DNA from: Microbacteriaceae bacterium
GTDB taxonomy: Bacteria; Actinomycetota; Actinomycetes; Actinomycetales; Microbacteriaceae
Reading direction: 5' to 3'
DNA: 33,397 nucleotides
NCBI GenBank assembly: GCA_947455435.1
Contig: CANGNZ010000010.1
Location: forward strand, 1 to 33,397
The translations under genes and the position numbers were made by a program. A model generated the notes under the pieces. It was not told where the DNA came from. It did not search any database and saw only the letters and a program-made list of their open reading frames with translations. The first letter of the stretch is position 1; every line of letters starts with the position of its first letter. Below, piece by piece: positions 2,830-8,593 of this stretch.

Positions 2830-4911
2830 CTAAGCGTCAATTCTTTCGGTATCGAAGTCATCGGCTGAATCGATGATGAACTCGCGCCGCGGTGCGACCT
2901 CATTGCCCATAAGTAACTCGAAAACCTTCTCGACAGCCTCAGCGTCATCTACCGTGACCCTCCGAAGCACTCGGTGGTCGCGGTCCATTGTCGTCTCAGA
3001 TAACTGGTCTGCATCCATTTCACCAAGACCCTTATAGCGCTGGATTGGTTCCTGGTAGCGCTTGCCTTCGGCTTTCAATTTTGCCAAAAGCGTTTCAAGC
3101 TCCGCTTGCGAGTAAGTGTAGATGGGCTCATTTGGCTTACTGCCGTGGTTTATGACCATTACCCGGTGTAGGGGCGGAACAGCAGCGAAAACCCGCCCAG
3201 CCTCAACCAGAGGGCGCATGTATCTAAAAAACAGCGTGAGTAGCAGGGTTCGAATGTGTGCGCCGTCGACATCTGCGTCTGACATCAGAATCACCTTGCC
3301 ATAGCGCGCGGCATCGAGATCGAATGAACGACCTGAACCTGCACCGATGACCTGGATAATCGAAGCACACTCGGCGTTCGAGAGCATATCGCTCACAGAA
3401 GCTTTCTGCACGTTCAGGATCTTACCGCGAATAGGCAACAGAGCTTGGAACTCGCTGTTGCGAGCCAGTTTTGCTGTGCCAAGCGCCGAGTCACCCTCAA
3501 CGATGAAAAGCTCTGAAACTTCGGTCTCTTGCGTTCGACAATCGACAAGCTTTGTCGGTAAAGACGACGACTCAAGCGCGTTTTTGCGACGTTGCGTTTC
3601 TTTATGAGTTCTCGCACTGATTCGAGACTTCATTTCTGCAACCACTTTTTCAAGTAGCAGAGCAGACTGCGCCTTATCGTCCCTCTTACTGCTCGTCAGA
3701 CGCTCAGTCAGGGCCTTGGTAATCACGTTAGCCACAATATTTTTAACAGCTGGTGTACCAAGGATTTCCTTGGTCTGACCCTCGAATTGCGGCTCAGCAA
3801 GGCGCACTGACACCACCGCGGTGAGGCCGGCAAAGGCGTCCTCTTTTTCGACTTTGTCGTTACCCAGCTTGAGCTTGCGGCTGTTCGCTTCTATTTGCGA
3901 GCGAAGCACTTTTAGAACAGCTTGCTCGAAGCCTGCTAGGTGTGTGCCACCCTTTGGTGTCGAAATTATGTTTACGAAAGACCTGACTTCGGTTTCGTAG
4001 CCGATGCCCCAGCGCAGAGCGACTTCAACTTCACAGTTACGCTCAACTTCGCGAGATTCCATGTTGCCCGACTCATTGAGGACGGGGATCGTCTCGGTGA
4101 ATGCTCCCGTGCCATTTAGGCGCCAGGTAGAAGTTAGTGCGGCATCTTTGGCTAGGTATTCGGCGAATTCTAGAAGCCCGCCATCAAACTTGAATTGGTG
4201 AATTTGTGGCTCAGGTGTGCGTTCATCGGTGATGGTTAGCCCAAGACCTGGCACCAGGAACGCCGTCTGCCTCGCACGACCGAGAAGCTCCTCGACTACG
4301 AAGTTTGCGTCTTTGACGAAGATTTGTGGGTCAGCCCAGTAGCGAACTCGGGTACCAGAGATACCTTTGGCTACTTTGCCGACCTCGCGAAGAACGCTAG
4401 CGTCCTCAAAAGGTTTGAAGGGGTTGTTTGGCGCGATCCCGTTTGCATCGTCAAACATGCCGGGCTCGCCACGCCTAAATGACATCGCCCAGGTTTTGCC
4501 ATCGCGATCAACCTCGACGTCTAGTCGCTCTGAGAGTGCGTTTACAACTGAAGCACCAACACCGTGCAGTCCGCCCGATGCTGCATAAGACCCAGAGCCA
4601 AACTTGCCACCGGCGTGGAGCTTGGTGAAAACTACCTCTACACCGCTTAAGCCGGTCTTGGGTTCGATATCTACTGGAACGCCACGAGCCTTATCGCGTA
4701 CCTCAACGCTGCCATCCTTGTGAAGTTGAATCTCGATCGAGTTACCGAACCCGGCAAGGGCTTCGTCAACAGAGTTGTCGATAATCTCCCAGAGGCAGTG
4801 CATAAGACCGCGGGAGTCGGTTGAGCCAATGTACATGCCCGGGCGTTTGCGAACAGCCTCAAGTCCTTCTAGAACGCTGAGGTGTCGGGCTGAATAATCG
4901 GTGTTTGGCAC
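2830..4911 (-). CDS. parE: DNA topoisomerase IV subunit B (ParE; GHKL ATPase)
   Basis: A 693-residue ATPase subunit of the type IIA topoisomerase, partner of the ParC encoded tail to tail. The GHKL ATP site is visible as EIIDNSVDEALAG (catalytic Glu42, Mg-binding Asn46) and GGLHGVGASVVNALS. The TOPRIM domain shows FIVEGDSALG, LPIRGKILNV and MSDADVDGAHIRTLL, followed by the C-terminal YKGLGEMDADQL. Length is normal for actinobacterial ParE and there is no insertion of the kind seen in some GyrB proteins. The start is GTG 4911-4909: an in-frame TAG lies four codons upstream, so it is the first possible start. A TAGCAT hexamer ends 6 nt upstream of this GTG, suggesting a leaderless transcript. 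A gyrB paralogue elsewhere is expected; without it gyrase versus topo IV is not fully settled. Confidence 0.92.
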   Translation of the reverse strand: MPNTDYSARHLSVLEGLEAVRKRPGMYIGSTDSRGLMHCLWEIIDNSVDEALAGFGNSIEIQLHKDGSVEVRDKARGVPVDIEPKTGLSGVEVVFTKLHAGGKFGSGSYAASGGLHGVGASVVNALSERLDVEVDRDGKTWAMSFRRGEPGMFDDANGIAPNNPFKPFEDASVLREVGKVAKGISGTRVRYWADPQIFVKDANFVVEELLGRARQTAFLVPGLGLTITDERTPEPQIHQFKFDGGLLEFAEYLAKDAALTSTWRLNGTGAFTETIPVLNESGNMESREVERNCEVEVALRWGIGYETEVRSFVNIISTPKGGTHLAGFEQAVLKVLRSQIEANSRKLKLGNDKVEKEDAFAGLTAVVSVRLAEPQFEGQTKEILGTPAVKNIVANVITKALTERLTSSKRDDKAQSALLLEKVVAEMKSRISARTHKETQRRKNALESSSLPTKLVDCRTQETEVSELFIVEGDSALGTAKLARNSEFQALLPIRGKILNVQKASVSDMLSNAECASIIQVIGAGSGRSFDLDAARYGKVILMSDADVDGAHIRTLLLTLFFRYMRPLVEAGRVFAAVPPLHRVMVINHGSKPNEPIYTYSQAELETLLAKLKAEGKRYQEPIQRYKGLGEMDADQLSETTMDRDHRVLRRVTVDDAEAVEKVFELLMGNEVAPRREFIIDSADDFDTERIDA

Positions 4912-4989: not shown

Positions 4990-5199
4990 ATGGAAGAAAC
5001 AGTAGTAGCACCAGAAACCACCACCGCACTGACAGCAGAGGACCGCTGCGACGTTTGTGGCGCCCAGGCCTACGTTCGAGTGAGCTTGGCAACTGGTGAG
5101 CTGCTTTTCTGCGGCCACCACGGCAAAGAGAACAAGCCAAAGCTTGAGGCAATTGCCCTCAAATGGCAAGACGAAACAGATCGCCTACTCGTTCGTTAG
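4990..5199 (+). CDS. DUF7455 family small zinc-binding-like protein
   Basis: A 69-residue protein with the typical actinobacterial DUF7455 layout: an N-terminal Thr/Ala/Val-rich tail (MEETVVAPETTTALTAEDR), then RCDVCGAQAYVRV and LLFCGHHGKE. The CxxC and CxxH pairs look like a single zinc-binding knuckle. The family has no established function, and in other actinobacteria it often lies beside the principal sigma factor and type IIA topoisomerase genes, as here. I chose ATG 4990 rather than an upstream in-frame ATG (4912) because it matches the family N-terminus and leaves room for the parE promoter. The TAG stop (5197-5199) interlocks with the TAA stop of the convergent gatD-like gene by 4 nt. 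Confidence 0.85.
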   Translation: MEETVVAPETTTALTAEDRCDVCGAQAYVRVSLATGELLFCGHHGKENKPKLEAIALKWQDETDRLLVR

Positions 5200-5789
5200 T
5201 GTGAACGCGCGCCTTCGGCGTATTTGTCAGCCTCAACTGAGTTTGCGTTAGGCGCAACTAAAACTCCAAGGCTAGTCAGCAATAAATCTGCCAGTTCTGG
5301 TGTTCTCGCCAAAACTGGGCCGTGAACCATGGTTGCAATAACCGAATCGCCTAGTCGAGAAATCGCCGGCAAATTCGTATCGGTGTTTATGTAGCCAAAA
5401 ACTCGGGGTAATCCGTCCTCTGCCGGCAGGTCGGCGTAATCACTAAGGCGTGGAGTTCGCTCGAAGTCTGGACAAACTAGTTCGTATCCACTGCCAACAA
5501 CTAAGCCAACACCCCCTGCCTGGGCAAAATCTAGGACACCCTGCCGAATCGCTTCGTGGTGATTGGCAAAACTTGTCACTGCAGCCTTTGAACCATGACC
5601 AACCATCAGGAACTTCGATTCAGGTGCTTCGATAATCCTGGCCGCCGCGGCTTCGAAATCCTCTGGAGCAATAGAAACAACCTTTGACTCGATGCCTAAC
5701 CACTCCAAACGCCGGCGAAGAACGAATACGTTCGCCTGATCGCCGTTGAGATTCATCCGCTCTGGGGCCAGGGTGTAAAACTCGATCAA
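5196..5789 (-). CDS. gatD: GatD-like class I glutamine amidotransferase homologue, catalytic Cys replaced
   Basis: A 197-residue homologue of GatD, the glutaminase half of lipid II isoglutaminyl synthase. Family features are MNLNGDQANVFVLRRRL near the N-terminus (usual form NxxGDxGN) and MVHGPVLARTPELAD (His156) near the C-terminus. At the nucleophile elbow, where GatD proteins carry a cysteine (for example AICGGYQL), this protein reads VVGSGYEL: the codon at 5493-5495 is GGC, giving Gly99. The usual GFENH segment is replaced by FGYINTDT, and the protein is shorter than typical GatD (about 240). It should therefore not hydrolyse glutamine in the normal way. Start is TTG 5789, whose TTGA overlaps the murT stop. 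It is probably co-expressed with the MurT-like ligase and may be a structural partner of it. Confidence 0.8.
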   Translation of the reverse strand: MIEFYTLAPERMNLNGDQANVFVLRRRLEWLGIESKVVSIAPEDFEAAAARIIEAPESKFLMVGHGSKAAVTSFANHHEAIRQGVLDFAQAGGVGLVVGSGYELVCPDFERTPRLSDYADLPAEDGLPRVFGYINTDTNLPAISRLGDSVIATMVHGPVLARTPELADLLLTSLGVLVAPNANSVEADKYAEGARSH

Positions 5790-7060
5790 CGTCCGACCTC
5801 CTCTGGCGACCAGAAGCCGAGTTCGCGTCGCATTCGTCGCATGGCGTCTGCAGAGAATATGACGGTCTTATGGCCACGCGCAGGCGTTGGCAGGTTGAAG
5901 AAAGTCTCAATTGCCTGGTCGAGTTCCTGAATAACTGAACCGATTGGAACATCGTGGTACTTGAGCAACAGTGCGGCCTGGTCAGCCTGCAACCCAGTGA
6001 CAACGTCTACGTGACTCAGGTTGGAATAGTCCACTGTCCACATCCATGACGGGTCATGAACATCTCTACCGATCGCAAACAGAATCTGCTCTGGGTCGCC
6101 TTCTAGATTGTCGATATTCAGCTGCATCGAGCCCGGATTCTGCACGAGAATGAACTCAACTTTTTGCCCGCGAACCTCGGTAATCTCGCCGCGAGCGAAA
6201 ACAGGTGGCAAGTTGTTCAAAGTTTCGGCTGCGAGCTCAAAGTCGAATTCTGGGCCCAGAAACTCTCGCGCACTTTGTATCGCTGCAATTGCGTCCACCG
6301 CGAAGTGAAGCCCGCGATTTGGTAGCAAAAGAGGCTGCATACCGACCTCTTGGAGCTCTGCATCGAAAGTCTTGCCGGCAAGATTGCGAACCTCGGCGAC
6401 GACAGTGGGTCTCGGGCCGACCTCTTGGTAAACCGGCGCAGTTGCAAGGCCGAACCGTTCGCTGGCCAGTGAAACCGCGTCTACACCAAACCACGACACC
6501 TTTGCCTCGGTTGGGTAACCCGCTAGCATGATCCGGAGATTGGGGTCGTCGGCGTTCAATATCAGAGCGTTTGTCGCCCTTGAACCGACCAAACCTAAAT
6601 CGTTTCGCACTAACGCGGGGTCAACGAAACGATCAAGTTGATCCTCCATGACATTCAAAATTGTCACTTGCCGTGGGGCTACATGTTTGGTTAGTTCAGC
6701 AGCGTGGGCCTCATCCATTTCGAGAATTGCCACTTCGCCCGGAAGTCGACCAGTCAAGCTTGACTGTTCGACAATTGCCGAAAAGAAGCCTTGCAGAATG
6801 TTGGCCGTTGAGGGGTTGGTGAAAACCTTGATCCCGTGCGCGCGGACAATTGCTACCAGCATTTTGGTGGTCGTCGATTTGCCGGCCGACCCTGTTACGA
6901 CAACTAGTCCGCTCGCAAACTTCCTAAGGCTCTTGGCGAGAAGCCCTGCGTCGATTTTGCTCACTACTAAACCCGGTAGAGCAGAGCCTCCGCCCTTGCG
7001 CACTAACCGAATCAAGACGCGCAAAACCCTACCGACCGCAAGGGCAAGTAGGGTTCGCAT
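5786..7060 (-). CDS. murT: MurT-like Mur ligase family protein (DUF1727 C-terminus), lacking the Cys4 zinc ribbon
   Basis: A 424-residue Mur-ligase-type protein. The ATP-binding loop is VVTGSAGKSTTTK (Lys61), followed by LEMDEAH (Asp116, Glu117), MEDQLDRF (residues 138-145) and LNADDPN. The C-terminal domain keeps VFARGEITEV and DPSWMWTVDY. In MurT-GatD this enzyme activates the D-Glu alpha-carboxyl of lipid II with ATP so that ammonia can form D-isoglutamine. Two changes are visible. The protein has no cysteine at all, so the four-Cys zinc ribbon normally inserted after the WxGV segment is absent. The usual SWxWDxDFE stretch has Thr342 in place of the first Asp. ATG 7060 follows the rpoD stop by 3 nt. 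Because the gatD-like partner also lacks its cysteine, a different acceptor than ammonia is likely. Confidence 0.82.
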   Translation of the reverse strand: MRTLLALAVGRVLRVLIRLVRKGGGSALPGLVVSKIDAGLLAKSLRKFASGLVVVTGSAGKSTTTKMLVAIVRAHGIKVFTNPSTANILQGFFSAIVEQSSLTGRLPGEVAILEMDEAHAAELTKHVAPRQVTILNVMEDQLDRFVDPALVRNDLGLVGSRATNALILNADDPNLRIMLAGYPTEAKVSWFGVDAVSLASERFGLATAPVYQEVGPRPTVVAEVRNLAGKTFDAELQEVGMQPLLLPNRGLHFAVDAIAAIQSAREFLGPEFDFELAAETLNNLPPVFARGEITEVRGQKVEFILVQNPGSMQLNIDNLEGDPEQILFAIGRDVHDPSWMWTVDYSNLSHVDVVTGLQADQAALLLKYHDVPIGSVIQELDQAIETFFNLPTPARGHKTVIFSADAMRRMRRELGFWSPEEVGR

Positions 7061-7063
7061 TGG

Positions 7064-8593
7064 CTAGTCCTCGCGGAATTCGCGAAGGGCGGGTGAGCGT
7101 GAAGGGTGGCGAAGCTTCGACATTGTCTTGGCTTCAATCTGGCGAATGCGCTCACGGGTAACCCCGAATTCTTCACCGATCTGGTCGAGAGTTTTCTGAA
7201 CACCGTCACCGAGACCGAATCGGCTGCGAATAACGCCAGCCTCACGAGGGTGAAGTGTTCCCAAAATTCGTTCGAGCTCACGCTTCAGCATCACCTGAGA
7301 AATAGCTTCGGCGGGAGCGATTGCATCGGTATCTTCGATCAGGTCGCCGAACTCACTATCGCCGTCTTCACCTAGAGGTGTCGAAAGCGAAATAGGTTCG
7401 CGCCCGTACTTTTGCACTTCGACAACCTTTTCAGGAGTCATGTCTAGTTCGCGGGCGAGCTCTTCTGGAGTTGGTTCGCGGCCAAGGTCTTGAAGCAACT
7501 GGCGCTGCACACGAGCAAGCTTGTTAATAACCTCAACCATGTGAACCGGGATGCGGATCGTGCGTGCCTGGTCGGCCATTGCACGGGTGATCGCTTGGCG
7601 AATCCACCAAGTTGCATAAGTGGAGAATTTGTAACCCTTGGTGTAGTCGAATTTCTCAACAGCGCGAATTAGGCCGAGGTTACCTTCTTGGATCAGATCC
7701 AAGAACTGCATTCCACGACCGGTGTAACGCTTTGCGAGGCTAACCACGAGACGAAGGTTGGCTTCGAGAAGGTGACTCTTTGCTCGTTCGCCGTCTTTCA
7801 TGACTCGCTTGAGGTCGAACTGCATCTCACGCGAAAGCTTTTTACCTTGTTCGAGTTTCTCTTGAGCGAAAAGACCAGCCTCGATGCGCTTCGCTAGCTC
7901 TACCTCGAGCTCTGCGTTAAGGAGCGCGACCTTGCCAATTTGCTTTAGGTAGTCCTTAACTGGGTCGGCAGTTGCACCGGTGATCGTTGTCGTCTGGACG
8001 GGGATGTCATCTTCGTCGGAGTGTGAAAGAACGAAACCACCGCTCGCCTCAACGGCCTTTTCAGTCTCCTTTGCAGAAGGATCTTCGTTGGAGTCCTCAT
8101 CGGCGCTGTCATCTTCAGCCGCAAGGTCAACAACCTCAGTAGCTTCGGCAACGATGTCGCTAACCGAAAGATCGACCTCATCATCAATCTCATCGATCGC
8201 GTCTTCATCTAGTTCGGTGGCCTTAGACGCCTTTGCAGCCTTTGGCTTAGCTTTGGCTGCGGGTTTTGCAGGAGTTTTTGAAGCTGGCTTAGTGGCAGGC
8301 TTCTCTGAAACCTTTGCCGCTGGCTTGGCAACTGGTTTAGCCGCTGGCTTAGCAACTGCTTTGGGTTCAGATTTCACGGCTGGCTTCGCAACCGGCTTGG
8401 CGACTGGCTTGGCGACTGGCTTAGCTTCAGGTTTAGCGGCAGCTTTAGCGACGGGTTTAGCGGCAGCTTTAGCGACGGGTTTAGCCTTCGGAGCAGGCTT
8501 TTCTGCAGGTGCCACCGGGGCGTCTGCGGGCTTGCGCGAACCGAATAGTCCACGTTTCTTAGCTGGAGTTTGCTCCGGCTTATCTTTCGCCAA
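7064..8593 (-). CDS. rpoD: RNA polymerase principal sigma factor (SigA/HrdB, RpoD family)
   Basis: A 509-residue group 1 sigma factor that directs RNA polymerase to housekeeping promoters. Region 1.2 begins at [11 protein letters not shown] (about residue 210). Region 2 includes [19 protein letters not shown] and [16 protein letters not shown] (residues 282-337), and region 4.2 includes [19 protein letters not shown] (residues 477-495). Residues 28-125 are a Lys/Ala/Pro-rich repeat resembling histone H1 tails, followed by an acidic stretch (about 127-172), an extension seen in many actinobacterial SigA proteins. The start is TTG 8593: the ATG 16 bases upstream is out of frame and hits a stop. 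murT and the gatD-like gene follow directly and may share its transcript. Core function is certain; the exact start is moderately sure. Confidence 0.95.
8436..8483 (-). repeat. Perfect 24-bp tandem duplication in the rpoD N-terminal coding region
   Basis: Bases 8436-8459 and 8460-8483 are identical 24-mers, encoding two copies of an eight-residue Lys/Ala/Pro unit (KPVAKAAA). They sit within a longer degenerate array (about 8230-8520) of KPAAKPVAK-type repeats, a likely site of length variation by slippage. Confidence 0.85.

Follow-up and report, generated by a model that had tools for sequence, protein, structure and literature searches.

What does a MurT/GatD pair do once its glutaminase subunit has lost the catalytic cysteine? 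The question is raised by a 33,397-nucleotide stretch of a Microbacteriaceae bacterium (assembly GCA_947455435.1, contig CANGNZ010000010.1; the whole stretch is the window below). Its minus strand carries, in this order, a sigA-like sigma factor gene, a gene for a MurT-like ATP-dependent ligase, a gene for a GatD-like protein and a gene for a GyrB/ParE-like topoisomerase subunit (parE; Table 1). Three bases separate sigA from murT, and murT and gatD overlap by four (TTGA); both reading frames and the overlap are as the initial annotation gave them. That annotation proposed a re-purposed ligase of the D-Glu alpha-carboxyl linked to B-type peptidoglycan, and the neighbouring genes, together with the replacement of the pair by a CofE-like gene in relatives, lend this support. 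We consider it likely, judging from the sequences compared, that the pair ligates the first residue of the group B interpeptide bridge to the D-Glu alpha-carboxyl.

The window GatD matches NCBIfam NF052463 (GatD) at 33.3 bits (E 4e-8; cut-off 450 bits) and shows weak phmmer matches to S. aureus GatD. It has no Pfam match over cut-off, and GATase_3 exceeds its cut-off in one homologue of the Cys-less branch (L043). PF07685 did not report the window GatD, but has matches elsewhere in the same genome (L001-L003). Aligned to the S. aureus protein, Gly99 stands at the position of the nucleophile Cys94, as initially annotated, and His156 at that of His189. The nucleophile Cys is present in none of the 208 distinct pairs of the branch, where it is replaced by Gly (145), Ala (32), Ser (22), Asn (6) or Thr (3); the first 111 rows, which include the window and its own copy L085, had Gly in 78, Ser in 15, Ala in 14 and Asn in 4. 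Replacement across one whole branch of the tree is more than chance. The triad His is kept in 162 of 213 Cys-less GatDs and lost in some lineages. The absence of a GFENH-like segment from the window GatD and its shortening by about 40 amino acids, both noted initially, recur in the 38 closest loci (L005-L042; 191-223 amino acids, segment in 0/38). The segment is present in 116 of the 213 Cys-less GatDs overall, and shortening of GatD marks the window's lineage, not the whole branch. The most reduced GatD-like proteins seen (L342, L348 and L140, in genomes G081, G196 and G144) have about 185-194 amino acids and neither catalytic Cys nor His.

There is a direct precedent for this change. The S. 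aureus GatD mutant C94G lost the use of glutamine and kept NH3-dependent activity at pH 8.5, and S. aureus MurT without GatD was inactive (PMC3266927). Because of this precedent, the glutaminase activity of the window GatD has very likely been lost. A dead GatD can still be needed, since the C94G complex is active with NH3 and MurT alone is not; by analogy, the natural Cys-less GatD should be required as a partner without hydrolysing glutamine.

The window MurT scores 88.7 bits against NCBIfam NF045635 (cut-off 800) and is over cut-off for the Pfam families Mur_ligase_M (35.5 bits) and MurT_C (27.1 bits). Its best solved relatives are MurT of S. pneumoniae (6fqb, E 2.6e-26) and S. aureus (7q8e, E 1.4e-23). 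We counted residue equivalents along the printed alignments to these two proteins, and argue fold and opening solely from the published structures and the alignments. The S. pneumoniae residues D112/E113, R135, K321-N322, D355, W360 and D361 correspond to D116/E117, E139, Q307-N308, D336, W341 and T342 of the window MurT. In 213/213 Cys-less and 59/59 Cys-containing MurTs alike, the Lys of the ATP loop is kept without exception, and so are Asn87, D116, E117 and D336; N85 and D112/E113 of MurT have been tied to the acceptor carboxylate and Mg2+ (PMC6085368). What has changed is the opening that faces GatD. The equivalent of Arg135, beside this opening, is kept in 0/208 Cys-less versus 64/64 Cys-containing distinct pairs. 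D361, which in S. pneumoniae belongs to a trio of acidic residues around the opening (PMC6085368), is matched by Asp in 55/213 Cys-less versus 59/59 Cys-containing MurTs.

Two signs that the initial annotation read in MurT have to be given up. Thr342 was taken for the lost Asp of the glutaminase triad, but it aligns with D361; the triad Asp is D336, equivalent to S. aureus D349, and it is kept. In the S. aureus enzyme the C94S change leaves no activity, and D349N leaves little or none (PMC6113224). The window MurT does lack cysteine altogether, as had been observed, but the missing Cys4 zinc ribbon is no sign of re-purposing: the pattern occurs in 0/213 Cys-less MurTs and in only 11/59 Cys-containing ones, so that 48/59 canonical pairs are without it too, and the ribbon is reported from only a subset of bacteria (PMC6113224).

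A large branch of the Microbacteriaceae shares the loss of the Cys. A scan of named genomes, from which 80 of 201 loci were taken, returned Rhodoluna, Cryobacterium, Leifsonia, Agromyces, Plantibacter, Galbitalea, Microterricola, Glaciihabitans and metagenome-assembled genomes; with 30 further loci this made 110, all with an adjacent GatD-like open reading frame and none with the Cys. With loci added later, both genes could be read in 297 rows (MurT in 299, GatD in 298), which after merging of identical pairs comprise 208 Cys-less pairs, 64 Cys-containing pairs, 11 of a THN class and 2 of a VFGTS class. Duplicate loci were removed differently for each count, which leaves 213 Cys-less loci for residues, 208 distinct pairs, and 205 or 206 for sigA adjacency (window left out). 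In a MurT tree of 126 rows, the 53 Cys-less rows (13 chosen and 40 random, out of 217) all fall to the same side of one branch with an SH-aLRT (approximate likelihood ratio test) support of 100, with some long-branch warnings, and Cys-containing pairs of the window's family are intermingled with those of other families. All 37 loci from other families of the order are Cys-containing. The best 30 GatD loci of a class survey include 8 from the window's family, which are Cys-less, and 22 others, of which 21 are Cys-containing; the remaining one (L375), whose site is not readable in the alignment, sits where L155, with Cys, does.

The initial annotation counted a second canonical pair in the genome, or cysteine retention without any correlation in other B-type Microbacteriaceae, against its own proposal; as far as these points could be checked, the proposal stands. 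In the window assembly (88.6% complete) we found a single MurT_C locus, a single GatD and no further one of either, PF08353 being too weak for the Cys-less branch (23-30 bits) to prove absence; the first pass of the genome searches scored part of the candidates, which makes absences soft. Retention does occur, with 64 distinct Cys-containing pairs, some in the same family. These were never seen behind sigA, and the Cys-less rows of the tree fall to one side of one branch.

Three sets of relatives deserve separate mention. Loci L035 and L037, from metagenome-assembled genomes titled Auritidibacter sp. (titles that are probably wrong), have the same gene order and a MurT 53-54% identical to that of the window. 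The THN class (L214-L219, L221-L224 and L226) is a third and very divergent class of MurT/GatD with His at the nucleophile position and no GatD His; its MurT has Asn for the triad Asp and keeps the Arg135 equivalent, and sigA precedes it in 9/11 loci (upstream stretches are short). Finally, L364 (G123), L220 and L227 have VFGTS at the GatD site and Ala for an acidic residue of MurT.

The position of the pair is as distinctive as its residues. Among the genes sought, sigA is the preceding one in 200/205 Cys-less pairs (194/206 at a 400-base limit) and in 0/59 Cys-containing pairs. At least 600 bases upstream are readable in 46 of the latter; the other 13/59 have less, and in four of their genomes (G014, G047, G059 and G083) a separately read sigA locus has no MurT. 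Five Cys-less pairs lie away from sigA: L115 and L117, which are second copies, L124 and L125, from a contaminated genome (G113), and L288 (G185). In both genomes with second copies, G122 and G159, a further Cys-less pair stands at sigA (L106 and L116), and the second pairs are perhaps for a second bridge residue.

Where the pair is missing, a different ligase often occupies the interval between sigA and parE. There are 31 family genomes without an ordinary Cys-less or canonical pair in which the sigA locus was read, and 24 of these carry a CofE-like gene there (PF01996, 49.2 bits, over cut-off). It mostly comes with an ATP-grasp gene (PF14397, 142.5 bits) and often with a racemase-like pair, AlrS and AlrL, of which AlrS has the C-terminal domain of alanine racemase only and AlrL both domains. 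Of the other seven genomes, G049, G119, G174, G019 and G051 have none of the genes sought, G053 has AlrS/AlrL only, and G127 has a THN class pair and the ATP-grasp gene. In nine genomes with Cys-containing pairs only (L242-L244, L247-L250, L269 and L274), sigA and parE are 26-899 bases apart with none of the sought genes between them. EctB, a diaminobutyrate aminotransferase (NF006733, 624 bits in L260, over cut-off), lies beside the CofE-like gene in G020 and G057 (L260 and L271) and adjoins gatD in one Cys-less locus (L312). AlrS/AlrL pairs accompany both kinds of ligase, and Alr-like genes fall within the fetched stretch in 42/205 Cys-less loci; neither they nor EctB were found at the window's own slot. 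In L272 (2842-4451) and L261 (2832-4558) the racemase-like genes are in tandem, the short one with the C-terminal part of Alr followed by the full-length one, and may encode a split or heterodimeric racemase. Sets of a CofE-like and an ATP-grasp gene (ATPgrasp_ST), some with AlrS/AlrL or EctB (L235 904-2667, L260 980-4138, L271, L356 and others), may make and attach bridge diamino acids.

Cys-less pair and CofE-like gene exclude each other. The 199 family genomes divide into 125 with Cys-less pairs only, 4 with Cys-less and Cys-containing pairs, 18 with Cys-containing pairs only, 27 with a close CofE-like gene only (E below 1e-70), 11 of the THN class, 2 of the VFGTS class and 12 left unassigned. 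No genome has both a Cys-less pair (129) and a close CofE-like gene (27; Fisher p 1e-14, kinship ignored). Weaker CofE-like matches (E near 1e-30) occur in G053, G123 and G147, the last with a Cys-less pair; in G123 (L364) a distant CofE-like gene, a VFGTS-class pair and AlrS/AlrL lie side by side between sigA and parE. Nine genus codes (g7, g9, g12, g57, g74, g76, g79, g84 and g85) hold both kinds of ligase in different species, and therefore the swap happened repeatedly. The same exclusion appears in a draw from the order. In four families chosen because they hold CofE (61 genomes), 36 genomes have MurT, 24 the CofE-like gene, none both and 1 neither (MurT and CofE-like, respectively: f6, 14 and 1; f12, 3 and 12; f18, 10 and 4, with 1 neither; f1, 9 and 7 of 16). 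For all 202 genomes of other families the thresholds used gave 73, 17, 0 and 112 (Fisher p 4e-4). The exclusion suggests that MurT and CofE-like proteins, which are unrelated ligases, serve the same chemical site. In G209, G242, G288, G333 and 13 more genomes of f6, f12 and f18, the CofE-like sequence lies within an open frame of 809-1016 amino acids, found only in genomes without a MurT match.

Table 1. Positions of the features discussed (codon positions of His156, Asp336, Thr342, Glu139, Asp116-Glu117 and Lys61, and the coordinates of the 69-amino-acid frame, derived by arithmetic)
Feature	Positions	Strand	Remarks
sigA-like sigma factor gene	7064..8593	-	directly upstream of murT; left edge of slot
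murT	5786..7060	-	MurT-like ATP-dependent ligase, 424 amino acids, ATG start, no Cys
MurT Lys61 of ATP loop GSAGKST	6878..6880	-	kept
MurT Asp116-Glu117	6710..6715	-	S. pneumoniae D112/E113; kept
MurT Glu139	6644..6646	-	S. pneumoniae Arg135, beside opening facing GatD; Arg in Cys-containing pairs
MurT Asp336	6053..6055	-	triad Asp (S. aureus D349, S. pneumoniae D355); kept
MurT Thr342	6035..6037	-	S. pneumoniae gate residue Asp361
murT/gatD stop/start overlap	5786..5789	-	4 nucleotides, TTGA
gatD	5196..5789	-	GatD-like, 197 amino acids, TTG start, without nucleophile Cys
GatD Gly99	5493..5495	-	codon GGC; position of S. aureus nucleophile Cys94
GatD His156	5322..5324	-	S. aureus His189; kept
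Open reading frame of 69 amino acids with CDVC...CGHH motif	4990..5199	+	between gatD and parE; convergent with gatD, overlaps its end
GyrB/ParE-like topoisomerase subunit gene	2830..4911	-	right edge of slot

The window's sigma factor starts with a long low-complexity stretch rich in Ala, Lys and Pro. The 69-amino-acid frame is one that we take to be DUF7455-like.

In peptidoglycan of group B the interpeptide bridge starts at the alpha-carboxyl of D-Glu, and Schleifer and Kandler are said to have sorted peptidoglycan into cross-linkage groups A and B in 1972; Erysipelothrix and Eubacterium limosum are group B Firmicutes. Genus code g34 (G034), presumably Clavibacter, has a Cys-less pair behind sigA (L306). 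The window's genus is apparently Rhodoluna. Peptidoglycan of R. lacicola is B2-beta (B10) with diaminobutyrate (Dab), and its partial hydrolysis yielded the peptides Gly-D-Glu and D-Ala-D-Dab (PMC4156110). Subtercola vilae, a species outside the loci compared, is B2-gamma with Dab (PMC5945732). An amino acid on the D-Glu alpha-carboxyl is known outside group B as well, because Intrasporangium calvum has glycine there (PMC3035309).

From these observations we infer the following steps. The pair would be a Cys-less offshoot of lipid II isoglutaminyl synthase, in which GatD has given up glutamine hydrolysis and acts as a structural partner, its old glutamine pocket possibly holding a different amine. 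MurT would keep its Mur-ligase chemistry, activating the D-Glu alpha-carboxyl of a peptidoglycan precursor with ATP and Mg2+. The attack on the activated carboxyl would then come from an amino acid in place of ammonia and so install the first residue of the group B bridge; in Rhodoluna-type B2-beta walls this would be D-Dab, by analogy to R. lacicola. An amino acid as the nucleophile would require changes in the opening and in the former glutamine pocket. Bridge ligation is the most economical reading because the hosts are apparently of group B, because the slot of some relatives has genes for Dab formation and racemase-like proteins, and because the alternative ligase does not co-occur with the pair.

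Several observations weigh against bridge ligation. EctB was found beside a ligase in only three of the loci read, and over cut-off in 6/40 genomes, one of which (G014) has a canonical pair only. The window genome has no EctB over cut-off and only one match to the Alr C-terminal domain, so that the source of D-Dab is not evident. Wall types can be tied to a Cys-less pair only for R. lacicola, by inferred genus, and for Clavibacter, by presumed genus. Some D-Glu amidation is reported in Clavibacter muropeptides (PMC9603630). Of the 27 genomes with a close CofE-like gene, 24 have it beside sigA, G094 and G156 have it elsewhere (L358 and L359), and in G044 the contig ended. There are also 18 family genomes with a canonical pair only and 11 with the third class, which keeps the Arg. 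Among the 12/199 left unassigned, G019, G049, G051, G119, G121 and G174 are at least 99% complete; G038 has a MurT behind sigA with GatD not read (L355), G005 has a MurT_C match, and G032 was not fetched. All counts are without kinship correction.

Could ammonia still be the substrate, taken from solution since GatD is dead, so that D-isoglutamine is made on lipid II as before? The amidated D-Glu of Clavibacter and the S. aureus C94G complex, which amidates with NH3 at pH 8.5, speak for such an amidase; at pH 7.5, however, that complex used neither NH3 nor NH4Cl (PMC3266927). The opening Arg is lost in 208/208 distinct pairs, and if ammonia were still handled there would be no evident reason to lose it in every member. 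Furthermore, the alpha-carboxyl of group B walls is by definition occupied by the bridge, and some relatives have EctB or racemase-like genes in the slot. We therefore regard a free-ammonia amidase as unlikely, and a bridge amino acid is preferred over free ammonia, an argument made from context.

Less probable again is a ligation by MurT elsewhere, in which an amino acid or amine would be joined to a carboxyl other than the D-Glu alpha-carboxyl or to some other acceptor, such as 3-hydroxy-Glu, a later bridge residue or a substrate outside the wall. The superfamily does include ligases with other substrates (among the NCBIfam matches of the window MurT, pMurC ranks third, at 60 bits), and the five Cys-less pairs away from sigA would fit such a role, but the equivalents of N85 and D112/E113, which have been linked to Mg2+ and the acceptor carboxylate, are invariant, and the replacement of MurT by CofE-like genes in four families points to one shared chemical site.

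Eight species pairs were compared for the ratio of nonsynonymous to synonymous substitution rates (dN/dS); five had dS above 1 or not computable, and the three with dS below 1 in both genes gave 0.05-0.11 for murT and 0.09-0.16 for gatD. It is thus very improbable that the pair is a pseudoenzyme or a remnant in decay whose role is confined to scaffolding or regulation: gatD does evolve faster than murT, and its product has lost the Cys, in some lineages the His and in the window's lineage about 40 amino acids, but these low unsaturated ratios, the invariant ligase residues and the conserved pairing and position stand against it, and with the wide distribution they rule out simple decay, as the initial annotation also held.

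The putative bridge ligase can be set beside several known systems. Like the GatD/MurT isoglutaminyl synthases of S. aureus and S. pneumoniae, the window pair has two overlapping genes, Mur-ligase middle and C-terminal domains, an ATP loop, equivalents of Asn85, D112/E113 and the triad Asp, and the GatD His. Unlike them, it lacks the nucleophile Cys and the Arg135 and Asp361 equivalents, its GatD is about 40 amino acids short and its scores are far below the NCBIfam equivalog cut-offs; the Cys-less pairs also have their fixed place behind sigA. The C94G mutant of S. aureus (PMC3266927) has the same change at the same position, and there too glutamine use was lost with GatD still required; it differs in being a point mutant with MurT otherwise unchanged, whereas in the natural branch the MurT opening has changed as well. 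Archaeal MurT-like ligases (PMC11915815) resemble the window pair as cell-wall ligases of MurT type without a glutaminase, but have no GatD gene at all, and their branch is basal in the MurT clan. The CofE or F420-0:gamma-glutamyl ligase family (PF01996) also consists of amide-bond ligases and is found in the same slot or where MurT is missing, but has no Pfam family in common with MurT/GatD. A search of the open-access PMC literature found no paper naming an enzyme that attaches the group B bridge to D-Glu.

More tentatively, the whole interval between sigA and parE may be an exchangeable Microbacteriaceae cassette for group B cross-bridges. It would supply a ligase acting on the D-Glu alpha-carboxyl, which would be the Cys-less MurT/GatD, with the dead glutaminase pocket turned into a binding site for the incoming diamino acid, or the unrelated CofE-like protein, plus in some lineages EctB, a split Alr-like pair and an ATP-grasp enzyme that make and add D-Dab, D-ornithine or Lys. 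If so, the swapping of modules in this cassette would explain the many group B subtypes within single genera. If the Cys-less pair is the group B bridge ligase, the question is directly testable with one purified pair. It would then be a clear case of a glutamine amidotransferase that became an amino-acid ligase by losing its nucleophile and having its ammonia opening remodelled; wall type could also be read from genomes.

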